Below, piece by piece: positions 5,728 through 20,033 of a DNA stretch of 29,373 nucleotides (position 1 is the stretch's first letter; each line of letters starts with the position of its first letter). This stretch comes from a virus. The notes beneath the pieces were generated by a model that searched no databases, had not been told where the DNA came from, and saw only the letters and a list, made by a program, of their open reading frames with translations. Where the stretch lies: the IMG/VR virus record IMGVR_UViG_3300025736_000130, positions 1 through 29,373 of that record; one strand, given 5' to 3'. A program made the position numbers and the translations under genes.

Positions 5728-5752
5728 ATCCATTAAACAAATAAACGTATGA
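5728..5752 (+). repeat. repeated start region, copy 1
   Basis: This 25-base stretch, from ATCCATTAAAC through the first bases of the gene at 5749, recurs perfectly at 6137-6161 over the start of another gene. The two genes are otherwise unrelated, so the shared part is a leader and start-codon cassette. It holds no Shine-Dalgarno sequence. Confidence 0.9.
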
Positions 5753-6129
5753 AGAAAAAAGAATCAGAGTTTGGTAAAGGTTTCATTTATAACCTTGTCT
5801 TATTCGCAAAACACTATGAAAGAATGCAAGGGTATCTTGAAACAAACAACAAAATGGCAGAATCTAGCCCAGACTTATGGACAAAAGGAGAGATAGATTC
5901 ATGGTTCAGTGGAGCAGGTGACCATTTCTTTGAAATAGAGATACCAAAACAGTTTGAAAATACAGAGATTGATAAAATAGCACTTGAATTACAAGATGAA
6001 GCAATAGAAAGAAGATTAGGCAAAAGCACGATGAAAGACGGTGAGGACTTCTTTAAAAAACTAGAAAAACTTTGTAGAATAATAGATAAAAAACTAGGAG
6101 TAGATTCAATAGAAGCAACGTGGAATTAA
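5749..6129 (+). CDS. conserved phage hypothetical protein
   Basis: This 126-residue protein starts KKKESEFGKGFIYNLVLFAK and contains WFSGAGDHFFEIEIP and a C-terminal ERRLGKSTMKDGEDFF, IIDKKLGV pattern. I have seen this arrangement (ESEFGKG..., a W-F-x-G-A-x-D-H box, a final short acidic-basic helix) in uncharacterised proteins of phages and environmental genomes; no function is known to me. It is predicted cytoplasmic and helical with no signal or membrane segment. Its start lies in a 25-base leader shared with the gene at 6158. It may belong to the early or middle gene set by position. Confidence 0.7.
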   Translation: MKKKESEFGKGFIYNLVLFAKHYERMQGYLETNNKMAESSPDLWTKGEIDSWFSGAGDHFFEIEIPKQFENTEIDKIALELQDEAIERRLGKSTMKDGEDFFKKLEKLCRIIDKKLGVDSIEATWN

Positions 6130-6136
6130 ATAATAC

Positions 6137-6161
6137 ATCCATTAAACAAATAAACGTATGA
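6137..6161 (+). repeat. repeated start region, copy 2
   Basis: Perfect second copy of the 25-base leader plus start codon found at 5728-5752. It covers the ATG at 6158. Confidence 0.9.
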
Positions 6162-6247
6162 GGAAAATTACAATTAGGGCGATTGATATTGCCGTAATAT
6201 TATTGTGCTGGGAAGCAGGACAAGCAGTATACAGATATTTTAACTAA
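6158..6247 (+). CDS. 29-residue hydrophobic peptide
   Basis: A 29-residue open frame whose start is the duplicated leader also used by the gene at 5749, which argues that it is translated. The basic start MRKITIR is followed by AIDIAVILLCWEAGQAV, long enough for one membrane-spanning helix, and a short polar end. It could be a membrane peptide or a remnant. No family is recognised. Confidence 0.5.
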   Translation: MRKITIRAIDIAVILLCWEAGQAVYRYFN

Positions 6248-6267
6248 CAAACCCTTATCTAAACTAT

Positions 6268-6405
6268 ATGAAACAATCACCAGAAGATACCTTGCAAAAA
6301 TTATTAAAAATAATTAATTCCAATCCTAAAATAAATAAAAAGGTCTTGAAAAAGAGATGTAAAAAAATAGGTTTAGATTACAAATTATTATCTTGTTTTA
6401 AATAA
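6268..6405 (+). CDS. unknown small basic protein
   Basis: A 45-residue frame, strongly Lys-rich (NKKVLKKRCKKIG) with a helical N half (EDTLQKLLKIINSN). It starts 20 bases after the previous stop with the usual A/T-rich leader and T at -1. Charge suggests nucleic acid or acidic-protein binding, which is only a guess. Bases 6406-6507 after it hold no convincing gene, though a short open stretch (6437-6511) contains a CVEC motif without a good start codon. Confidence 0.45.
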   Translation: MKQSPEDTLQKLLKIINSNPKINKKVLKKRCKKIGLDYKLLSCFK

Positions 6406-6507
6406 CACATTCATTATAGGAACAGGTTTAATTTAATTAACTATAGTTGTTAGATTTATATGTGTGGAGTGTGATGGTAAACAATTAAGAGCTAAGAATA
6501 AATTAGT

Positions 6508-6810
6508 ATGAGAAAACATCTTCAAAAAAGAAAAAACGCTGGAATTATTGATTTTATTGAGGTGTCTCTTGACTGGGGCAGGTGTCATAAGGAATTTGTA
6601 GTATATGACATTGAACAAGATTATTTTTGTAGAATTTTCTTTGACAATAAGTATAGACAAGATACAGAAAACACACCACAAAAAAGATTAGATTTTCTTG
6701 AACAGAAATATAAAGAACTTGAAAAAGACAAAAGTAAGGGCTTGTATTCAGTTGCAGATGAAAAAAAAGAGGTGAAAGAGCAGATGGAGTTTTATAAAAA
6801 ATATCTATGA
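6508..6810 (+). CDS. unknown protein with C-terminal helix
   Basis: This 100-residue protein has an N-terminal basic segment, then a likely beta region (IIDFIEVSLDWGRCHKEFVV, YFCRIFFDNKY), then a highly charged C-terminal helix (LEQKYKELEKDKSKG, KKEVKEQMEFYKKYL). It overlaps the next gene by an ATGA, so the two are probably co-translated. I recognise no family. The lack of membrane segments and the charged helix suggest a soluble protein with a protein partner, perhaps the next gene product. Confidence 0.6.
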   Translation: MRKHLQKRKNAGIIDFIEVSLDWGRCHKEFVVYDIEQDYFCRIFFDNKYRQDTENTPQKRLDFLEQKYKELEKDKSKGLYSVADEKKEVKEQMEFYKKYL

Positions 6811-7690: not shown

Positions 7691-7736
7691 TTATCCACAG
7701 TAATATTTTGACAAGCAACCAAAAGTATGGTATTAT
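7691..7736 (+). promoter_or_regulatory. sigma70 promoter P3 with upstream TTATCCACAG box
   Basis: TTATCCACAG (7691-7700), seven bases, TTGACA (7708-7713), a 17-base spacer and TATTAT (7731-7736) preceded by TGG. The first ten spacer bases (AGCAACCAAA) differ by one base from those in P1, beyond anything the polymerase needs, so a shared regulator site is likely. It drives the recombination block. Confidence 0.78.
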
Positions 7737-10364: not shown

Positions 10365-10614
10365 TAAAAGACGGAAACAACTGAAAAAGATAGCACCTCT
10401 GGGCGGACAAGCTACATTTAAAAAATATGGCAGTAGTCATTTTAGTAGAATAGCAAAGAAACAAACAGAGGAACGCATGGGAGGATTGACAATCAAAGAG
10501 CGATCAGAAATGATGAGCTGTGTTAGAAAATATAAATACGGTTGGAGATGGAATAAAGAAAAAAGGAAATGTTTAGATTTGGGGGTTGCTTTTGGAGATA
10601 ATATAAACAAATAA
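10357..10614 (+). CDS. unknown basic protein
   Basis: An 85-residue, highly basic protein (NNKRRKQLKKIAPLGGQATF, KKYGSSHFSRIAKKQ, CVRKYKYGWRWNKEKRK). The GG-x-A-T-x-K-K-Y-G-x-x-H-F-x-x-I-x-K-K stretch looks like a short DNA-binding helix-turn unit seen in small phage and environmental proteins. It starts inside the NinB-like gene (8-base overlap). The stop codon is part of a 22-base element repeated at 11205. Likely nucleic-acid-binding; function unknown. Confidence 0.55.
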   Translation: MNNKRRKQLKKIAPLGGQATFKKYGSSHFSRIAKKQTEERMGGLTIKERSEMMSCVRKYKYGWRWNKEKRKCLDLGVAFGDNINK

Positions 10615-10633
10615 CACAGGAACTTAATCCTGA
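10612..10633 (+). repeat. 22-base leader repeat with hairpin, copy 1
   Basis: Identical to 11205-11226, each beginning with the stop codon of one gene and lying 13 or 11 bases ahead of the next ATG. CAGGA and TCCTG (loop ACTTAA) form a hairpin that buries the only Shine-Dalgarno-like AGGA of the leader. Confidence 0.9.
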
Positions 10634-10646
10634 ATAAAATATAAAT

Positions 10647-11207
10647 ATGAAGAAAGAATTAACAAAAACAACAAATGTTTTATACCATTACAAAGACAAA
10701 GTAAGGATTGAGGGTAAAAATGAAGAGATGCGTGGTAATTGCACTGGCTTGTGGGGTGATTGCACTGGCTTGTGGGGTGATTGCACTGGCTTGAGTGGTG
10801 ATTGCACTGACTTGCGTGGTAATTGCTCTGGCTTGTGGGGTGATTGCACTGGCTTGATTGGTTATTGCACTGGCTTGAGTGGTAATTGCTCTGGCTTGAT
10901 TGGTTATTGCACTGGCTTGAGTGGTAATTGCACTGGCTTGAGTGGTAATTGCTCTGGCTTGAGTGGTTATTGCACTGGCTTGAGTGGTAATTGCTCTGGC
11001 TTGAGTGGTAATTGCTCTGGCTTGCGTGGTAATTGCTCTGGCTTGAGTGGTAATTGCTCTGGCTTGCGTGGTAATTGCTCTGGCTTGCGTGGTAATTGCT
11101 CTGACTTGAGTGGTAATTGCACTGGCTTGAGTGGTGATTTAGATAATTGTAAAATAACAGACGAAGAAAGAGAAAAAGGTATTGATATAAAAGAGCTTAG
11201 TAAATAA
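10647..11207 (+). CDS. Cys-Gly heptad-repeat protein
   Basis: This 186-residue protein has a 27-residue polar head, 19 tandem seven-residue units of pattern G-[NDY]-C-[TS]-[GD]-L-[SRWI], and a charged end cap (DLDNCKITDEEREKGIDIKE). The repeat is not the five-residue A(D/N)Lxx pentapeptide, although an elongated beta-solenoid is plausible. The cap (D-x-C-x-I-x-D-E-x-R-x-x-G-I-D-I) recurs, from memory, in uncharacterised repeat proteins of phages and bacteria, so the family exists but its job is unknown. The regular Cys ladder could bind metal or form a stack of thiols in the reducing cytoplasm. DNA copies are nearly identical, indicating recent expansion by recombination or slippage, and copy number may vary between isolates. 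Confidence 0.75.
   Translation: MKKELTKTTNVLYHYKDKVRIEGKNEEMRGNCTGLWGDCTGLWGDCTGLSGDCTDLRGNCSGLWGDCTGLIGYCTGLSGNCSGLIGYCTGLSGNCTGLSGNCSGLSGYCTGLSGNCSGLSGNCSGLRGNCSGLSGNCSGLRGNCSGLRGNCSDLSGNCTGLSGDLDNCKITDEEREKGIDIKELSK
10734..11132 (+). repeat. 19 x 21-base tandem repeat encoding heptads
   Basis: The unit is 21 bases, of type GGTAATTGCTCTGGCTTGAG plus one base, running in frame without interruption. Variation is concentrated at codon 2 (N/D/Y), codon 4 (T/S) and codon 7 (S/R/W/I). There are no spacers, so it is not a CRISPR array. Confidence 0.95.
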
Positions 11208-11226
11208 CACAGGAACTTAATCCTGA
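11205..11226 (+). repeat. 22-base leader repeat with hairpin, copy 2
   Basis: Perfect second copy of the element at 10612-10633, beginning with the stop codon of the heptad-repeat gene and leading into ATG 11238. Confidence 0.9.
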
Positions 11227-11237
11227 GTAAAAATAAT

Positions 11238-11423
11238 ATGGAAGAAGAACATTATAACATAATAAAAGCGATGAAAAGACAGGGAGGAAGTTTTGTTGTA
11301 GCATTAGCAGGTGCTTTTGAACAAGCCGATAATATAAATTTTAATAAATTAAAAACAACCTTTGATGTGTATTGGAAAACTTATAAAAAAGTAGCAAAGG
11401 AATATGGTAATTTTGAAGACTAA
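11238..11423 (+). CDS. conserved small phage protein
   Basis: A 61-residue helical protein with RQGGSFVVALAGAFEQADN and KLKTTFDVYWKTYKKVA. The pattern G-G-S-F-V-x-A-L-A-x-A-x-x-x-A-D-x-x-N-x-x-K-L-x-x-x-F-x-x-Y-W-x-x-Y is one I have seen in many short, uncharacterised phage and prophage proteins. It shares its 22-base leader with the heptad-repeat gene and overlaps a possible small gene at 11404. It is cytoplasmic, with no metal or nuclease motif. Function unknown. Confidence 0.65.
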   Translation: MEEEHYNIIKAMKRQGGSFVVALAGAFEQADNINFNKLKTTFDVYWKTYKKVAKEYGNFED

Positions 11424-11507
11424 CACCCCAGTAATTTACTGGATAGAATACGATGATGGTGGTGTGGTAACCAAGACAGGTATAATAATACTATTGTTCC
11501 TAGGGTA
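11404..11507 (+). CDS. possible 34-residue peptide running into a structured RNA
   Basis: Frame from ATG 11404 with AAAGG five bases upstream, one of the few near-consensus ribosome sites here. The peptide includes PVIYWIEYDDGGVVTKTG and then a hydrophobic end (IIILLFLG). The first part looks like a real beta-strand protein. The last part may be untranslated RNA read by chance, or the gene may once have continued. It overlaps the upstream gene by 20 bases and the left arm of a long inverted repeat lies within it, so translation would compete with RNA folding. Confidence 0.4.
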
Positions 11508-11846
11508 GGGGTTAATTGCCCGAGAGTAAGGAAACTATAAAGTCGCAAACCAATTGCCCATCATCTATTCTATTTAGTAAATAACTTAATTAATTACATT
11601 CTATAGAGAAATAGTTTATATCCCCGTTGTGTGAAAACTTTAAAATGGTACTGTGTGGGCAAGCTCCTAAAACTATAGGAGCATAACCGTTAAATAAAAA
11701 ATCATCTATGCCATTGCCGACGGGTAATCCAAGAGTAATCTTGTAAAACTTTATTAGACAAGCAAGACCTGTGTAGTGCAGGGGTATCTAATAAGGGACG
11801 GCAGGCTAGTGTTTGCAACACACCTCTATAGAATATAGTTAATTAA
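11430..11846 (+). ncRNA. candidate large structured RNA of unknown class
   Basis: The 466 bases between genes (11424-11889) hold extended complementarity. Helix 1: 11430-11459 with 11558-11586, with 26 Watson-Crick pairs, two G-U, one mismatch and one bulge. Helix 2: 11587-11608 with 11824-11845, about 20 of 22 positions pairing, including 11 in a row (ATTCTATAGAG with its complement). Inside helix 2 are hairpins 11663-11669/11676-11682, 11749-11758/11787-11796 (enclosing 11768-11771/11779-11782) and 11809-11813/11817-11821. Two closed domains side by side suggest a folded RNA. No tRNA, tmRNA or RNase P signatures are visible. A degenerate group I intron is possible, since GGGGTTAATTG...GAG recalls the start of T4 td. 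No T-run follows. Strand is assumed from the neighbouring genes. Confidence 0.55.
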
Positions 11847-11889
11847 ACACTAGAATAAGAAAATCTAATTCAAAGCTATAAACTAGAAT

Positions 11890-12153
11890 ATGAAAAATAA
11901 ACCAGACCAAGAACAATTTATAAGCTCGTTGTACTATGTTGAATGGAAAACATTAGAAGAAGTAGAGAAATATGTTAAAGATTACCTAGCCGAAGAACGC
12001 TCTAAGGTAATCTCTACTATCGCAGACTTTGCAGAAGAAGAAAGAGATGTGCTTGGTAATTTTAATAAGCTAGATGACGAATACGCAGAGGGCTTTTGGA
12101 TGGGGATGAATACGGTACTAAAGTTTACAGATAAACTTAATCAATCTAAATAA
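11890..12153 (+). CDS. unknown acidic helical protein
   Basis: An 87-residue acidic protein (KTLEEVEKYVKDYLAEERSK, DFAEEERDVLGNFNKLDDEY), predicted nearly all helix, with a final hydrophobic patch (GFWMGMNTVLKFTDKL). No motif recognised. It is the first gene after the structured region; its leader repeats the bases ACTAGAATA also found at 11850-11858. Bases 12154-12219 after it contain TTGTAACCCCC twice, 22 bases apart. Confidence 0.6.
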   Translation: MKNKPDQEQFISSLYYVEWKTLEEVEKYVKDYLAEERSKVISTIADFAEEERDVLGNFNKLDDEYAEGFWMGMNTVLKFTDKLNQSK

Positions 12154-19886: not shown

Positions 19887-19903
19887 TAAAACAATTTAAA
19901 ATC

Positions 19904-19988
19904 CTATCCTCTCACTCTTTGTTTATGGCATGATAAATAAAGATAATGATTATTGCACCTTATGTATTGACATAGGGTAAGAGGATAG
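19904..19988 (+). promoter_or_regulatory. long-range hairpin in the leader of the protease gene
   Basis: CTATCCTCT (19904-19912) pairs exactly with AGAGGATAG (19980-19988), and flanking bases extend the helix with a few G-U pairs. The 67-base loop includes ATAATGATTAT, itself palindromic. Together with the terminator that follows, this forms the 158-base gap between 19886 and 20045, which has no gene. It may be an attenuator, RNA-processing site or protein-binding site for late capsid expression. Confidence 0.45.
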
Positions 19989-20006
19989 AATAGAAGAACT
20001 TCATAG

Positions 20007-20033
20007 AAAGTCGGATAATACCGACTTTTTTAA
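20007..20033 (+). terminator. intrinsic terminator or attenuator ahead of capsid genes
   Basis: AAAGTCGG (20007-20014), loop ATAATA, CCGACTTT (20021-20028), continuing into further T: an eight-pair stem with a U tract. It sits only 12 bases before ATG 20045, so it would limit transcription into the capsid genes unless relieved, as in an attenuator. Confidence 0.75.

Follow-up and report, generated by a model that had tools for sequence, protein, structure and literature searches.

Long near-perfect stems in polycistronic mRNAs are ordinary RNase III-type substrates or stability barriers, and RNase III stalks flank rRNA precursors and occur in phage early mRNAs. Larger phage RNAs have also been described: ROOL and GOLLD often lie near tRNA islands and have folds supported by covariation (PMC12286853), and in phage ICP1 a gap lacking ORFs gives a transcript of ~800 bases and unknown role, as shown by RNA-seq (PMC7567579).

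Here we describe a gap between two small genes of the phage record IMGVR_UViG_3300025736_000130, which is predicted to fold into two domains closed by long stems (Table 1). The window, by which we mean the whole stretch of 29,373 bases that was analysed, is coding almost entirely on the plus strand and encodes a DnaB-like helicase, a Sak4-like protein, an exonuclease, a terminase, a portal and a major capsid protein. Its sister phage, L016 (IMGVR 3300022858_000173), serves as the main comparison below.

Predicted fold of the gap

A first-pass annotation had proposed that the gap folds into two large adjacent domains, and the predicted fold agrees, with both closing stems falling where they had been placed. 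Helix 1 comprises 28 pairs (11430-11432/11584-11586, 11434-11450/11566-11582 and 11452-11459/11558-11565), of which 26 are Watson-Crick and 2 are G-U, interrupted by one A-A mismatch (11433/11583) and one bulge (C11451), exactly as had been described; its mean pair probability is 0.98-0.99 in the two main runs and 0.57 in the outer 3 pairs. Helix 2 comprises 21 pairs, 10 at 11587-11596/11836-11845 and the anticipated exact 11-base core at 11598-11608/11824-11834. The two helices abut at 11586/11587, with zero bases between them, and the inverted repeats bound segments of 157 nt and 259 nt with loops of 98 and 215 nt. Three hairpins had been placed inside helix 2, where further arms are indeed predicted, although four in number. 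Comparing domain 1 with domain 2 for self-similarity gave short chance matches only. The predicted 28- and 21-pair helices both provide the at least two helical turns of near-continuous duplex expected of an RNase III stem.

Table 1. Positions of the gap, its predicted structural parts and neighbouring features in the window
Feature	Positions	Strand	Basis	Remarks
Nearest phage-type promoter 5' of gap	7708..7736	+		TTGACA-17-TATTAT; presumed transcript source
61-aa ORF	11238..11423	+		5' neighbour of gap; without family
Possible 34-aa ORF	11404..11508	+	codon usage	across upstream gene end and helix 1 5' arm
Gap with both domains	11424..11889	+		466 nt; between 61-aa and 87-aa ORFs
Helix 1, 5' arm	11430..11459	+	predicted fold	
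Domain 1 interior	11460..11557	+	predicted fold	weak hairpins; z 0.0 vs shuffles
Helix 1, 3' arm	11558..11586	+	predicted fold	
Helix 2, 5' arm	11587..11608	+	predicted fold	
Domain 2 arm a	11623..11724	+	predicted fold	irregular; 7-bp apical hairpin 11663-11682
Domain 2 hairpin b	11730..11743	+	predicted fold	CAAGA/UCUUG; P 0.98
Domain 2 arm c	11749..11796	+	predicted fold	10 bp; P 0.98
Domain 2 hairpin d	11801..11816	+	predicted fold	6 bp; P 0.93
Helix 2, 3' arm	11824..11845	+	predicted fold	
87-aa ORF	11890..12153	+		3' neighbour of gap; without family; mosaic relative of L016 ORF 5440-5721

For the whole gap the predicted folding energy is -130.8 kcal/mol, whereas dinucleotide shuffles average -97.7 (z -5.4) and 0 of 100 were as stable. 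By fold energy against shuffles, domain 1 has a z of -5.65 and domain 2 of -4.98; the interiors alone score 0.0, equal to random, and -1.6, weakly better. Because the interiors lie near the shuffle level, the signal lies in the two long inverted repeats and, to a modest degree, in the multi-arm interior of domain 2, and the excess stability of the gap comes nearly all from the two closing stems. As the longest helix found per 466-nt shuffle, helix 1 is rare (p ~0.003), whereas helix 2 alone is not (p ~0.12). The earlier claim of complementarity beyond chance holds for the gap as a whole, though helix 2 alone is unremarkable as a longest helix, and the gap is not unique genome-wide, as it is the rank 3 fold peak among 487 plus-strand windows over 29 kb, with other intergenic sites ranking close. 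The plus strand is more stable than the minus in domain 1 (-51.6 vs -44.4) and in domain 2 (-75.0 vs -68.2).

Relatives and surroundings of the element

The gap is 100% identical in two contigs (IMGVR 3300025661_000077 and IMGVR 3300005936_000034), which match the window at 99.96-99.99% over long stretches and represent the same phage lineage; being identical, these copies are uninformative on covariation. L016 shares ~88% DNA identity with the window in the longest aligned block and 74-89% elsewhere. The flanking neighbours are shared on either side, yet the small genes at the syntenic place of L016 differ and the element is absent, indicating that the element is accessory. It sits in a mosaic cassette region that exchanges gene ends.

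Distant-mode blastn against GenBank phages and plasmids gave no match to the gap, searches with the neighbouring genes returned only the identical contigs and relatives without the element, and six-seed pseudo-translation scans for each domain across 2.9 million viral contigs recovered identical copies only. The sole genomic relative of the terminase (42%) is on a Ca. Uhrbacteria contig, and the host is possibly among uncultured Patescibacteria, one distant terminase relative being a weak guide. Within the phylum of that match, 380 and 287 sampled genomes (searched as DNA and with a single-sequence covariance model) gave chance-level short matches or none, and the single-sequence model R1, which covers domain 1 only, had a best foreign E of 0.23 over 39 sources. 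Such single-sequence searches are weak, so the absence of relatives is no proof of uniqueness. The element is known from one lineage, and a new class is unproven.

At the borders, AACAC (5 bp) flanks the paired region on both outer sides (11422-11426 and 11846-11850). The string ACTAGAATAAGAAAAT (11849-11865), shortly 5' of the 87-aa gene, resembles the start region of that gene, ACTAGAATATGAAAAAT (11884-11900), and this likeness may be a duplication scar. All six read-through frames of the gap were compared with PHROGs and Pfam with no match (best E 0.26), indicating that it is no decayed known gene.

Three clear sigma-70-type promoters were identified in the phage, at 2474, 2785 and 7708. 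Exact copies of TTATCCACA, the DnaA-box consensus, start 17-18 nt 5' of their -35 elements (2457, 2767 and 7691, plus strand), and three further exact copies are in minus orientation (18543, 18564 and 19447); this arrangement suggests DnaA-linked control of phage transcription or replication. A candidate sRNA or attenuator, stronger than the finding at 11424-11889, lies between promoter 2785 and the replication gene (2973): a rod-like, very long stem, CAAGAACCAC...GTGGTTTTTTT, which spans 2855-2966, contains internal hairpins and ends in a T run (z -6.8). A structured intercistronic hairpin at 19901-19991 is retained by both L010 and L016, where two of its pairs have both partners changed, and a conserved intrinsic-terminator-like hairpin follows 3' of it (approximately 20004-20031). 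Upstream of the gap, a repeated leader with the hairpin CAGGAACTTAATCCTG stands 5' of two genes (10609-10654 and 11202-11246) and, with one base changed, also precedes a gene in L016. An ORF of 21-base tandem repeats, GNCSGLSGNCTGL (10647-11207), is strongly structured as RNA (z -8.4) and has fewer repeats in L016. Elsewhere, an in-frame 915-bp intein with a TIGR01443 C-terminal splicing region interrupts the large terminase (L008, ~5729-6648); it is found in both otherwise nearly identical phages, and the terminase of the window has an empty site (16842/16846).

Possible roles of the two stems

Our preferred reading, held tentatively, is that the gap is an accessory structured RNA segment of an early polycistronic transcript in a variable cassette region, with the stems as processing or stability elements. 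A scan of the gap found neither a plus-strand terminator nor a promoter of the type that this phage has, so that its RNA would belong to the operon transcript starting near 7708. We infer that the element would be transcribed from that promoter within the early operon and would fold in cells, and that its two long near-unbroken stems, judged by their length alone, would be double-strand processing elements for RNase III-type cleavage, which might free domain 2 as a small RNA. Alternatively, the stems might protect the message upstream and downstream as stability barriers. The reading is consistent with the z of -5.4 carried by the closing stems, with better folding of the plus strand in both domains alongside flanking genes that are also plus, with the missing promoter and terminator, and with the lack of the element at the syntenic place in L016. 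Other gaps of the phage also hold structured intercistronic elements, one with paired changes in relatives. Against it, no diverged homologue was found in the searches above, and hence no covariation; the domain 1 interior is not structured beyond chance; and the possible 34-aa ORF extends across the 5' arm of helix 1.

The main rival, possible but doubtful in our estimate, is that the stems have no function: they would be inverted repeats that arose by chance or were left over in a cassette region undergoing rapid shuffling, perhaps remnants of small genes, and their fold would not be under selection. Interiors that fold like shuffles, the ordinary length of helix 2, the sister phage lacking the element and conservation limited to identical contigs would all fit this reading, whereas the stability of the whole gap, unequalled among its shuffles, the joining of two long stems without an intervening base and the several high-probability hairpins in domain 2 argue against it.

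The size of the element, its location in a phage, the multi-arm domain 2 and the lack of an Rfam family would suit a stable trans-acting phage ncRNA of an undescribed class, working in a GOLLD/ROOL-like manner or as an anti-defence decoy. We regard this as unlikely, given that neither the six-seed scans of 2.9 million viral contigs nor the sampled genomes of the Uhrbacteria phylum yielded a homologue, that it would lack both a promoter and a terminator of its own, and that at least the sister phage does without it. It is distinctly improbable that the gap belongs to a class of large structured RNAs with two domains that has so far gone undescribed and that phages of uncultured bacteria, possibly Patescibacteria, carry as an accessory module.

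The gap had been called gene-free, which may fail over its first 85 nt. These are covered by an ORF (ATG 11404) whose first 20 nt lie within the upstream gene, short overlaps being frequent among operon genes. Its mean codon log-odds is 0.156, compared with an in-frame mean of 0.167 and off-frame 95th percentiles of at most ~0.09, and it thus scores like the real genes of the phage. Homologue searches with the peptide gave no match, and a pattern scan with its WIEYDDG motif matched unrelated proteins only. By its codon usage the ORF might be a real gene, in which case the 5' arm of helix 1 would be coding. Ribosomes on these 34 codons could then open helix 1 and alter the fold or downstream expression, as in a leader; this we consider very unlikely despite the in-frame-like codon score and the overlap with the arm, since the peptide has no homologue and neither an alternative terminator nor a masked start was identified.

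An element acting as DNA, whether one or more miniature terminal-inverted-repeat insertions or a replication or recombination site, would account for the two segments bounded by inverted repeats, for AACAC on both outer sides and for the patchy presence. Its chances are slight: MITE-like insertions would be expected in multiple copies, and neither domain has a second copy in the phage or any in relatives; the replication gene lies elsewhere, as do the DnaA-type boxes; and loop sizes of 98 and 215 nt speak against cruciforms. A decayed or novel group I intron, raised earlier for the resemblance of GGGTTAATT...GAG to td, is hardly credible, as RF00028 had no match at E<=10 where the controls were detected at 1e-7 to 1e-8 (T4 nrdB E 5.9e-7, T4 td E 2.5e-8), the best td-like local match scores 23 and is equalled in 45 of 500 gap shuffles, the gap lies between two complete ORFs and interrupts no gene, and no P7/P3 core was seen by eye.

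Comparison with known structured RNAs

The first-pass annotation recognised no RNA class, and the Rfam search agrees, with nothing at the gathering threshold or at E<=10, the covariance models of ROOL, GOLLD and OLE included; positive controls were group I introns only. With the T4 td and nrdB introns, the gap has in common a short string resembling the td 5' splice region, but this similarity is insignificant, and the gap lies outside a gene and lacks a group I core. Like ROOL and GOLLD of phages and prophages, it would be a large predicted structured RNA in a phage intergenic gap (PMC12286853). The proposed likeness does not extend further: unlike them, the gap has no covariance-model match, no conserved family of homologues and no tRNA island (a tRNA/tmRNA search of the window found no tRNA, such proximity being frequent, not obligatory), it is closed by simple long stems, and it is shorter than typical GOLLD RNAs, many of which exceed 800 nt (PMC12286853).

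In shape, the two domains resemble RNase III stalks, as long near-perfect stems are predicted to close large loops within a polycistronic transcript. They differ from such stalks in that their interiors match no known RNAs, and their processing is a conjecture from stem length. The ICP1 gap is a closer parallel in kind than ROOL or GOLLD: both are phage gaps that lack ORFs, lie away from tRNAs and may encode a large RNA outside the known families, although the ICP1 RNA (~800 nt) was shown by RNA-seq (PMC7567579) and the RNA here is predicted from sequence. If transcribed and folded, the element would add one more orphan structured RNA to the intergenic RNAs of phages, and would indicate that phage operon cassettes can gain and lose structured RNAs by exchange.
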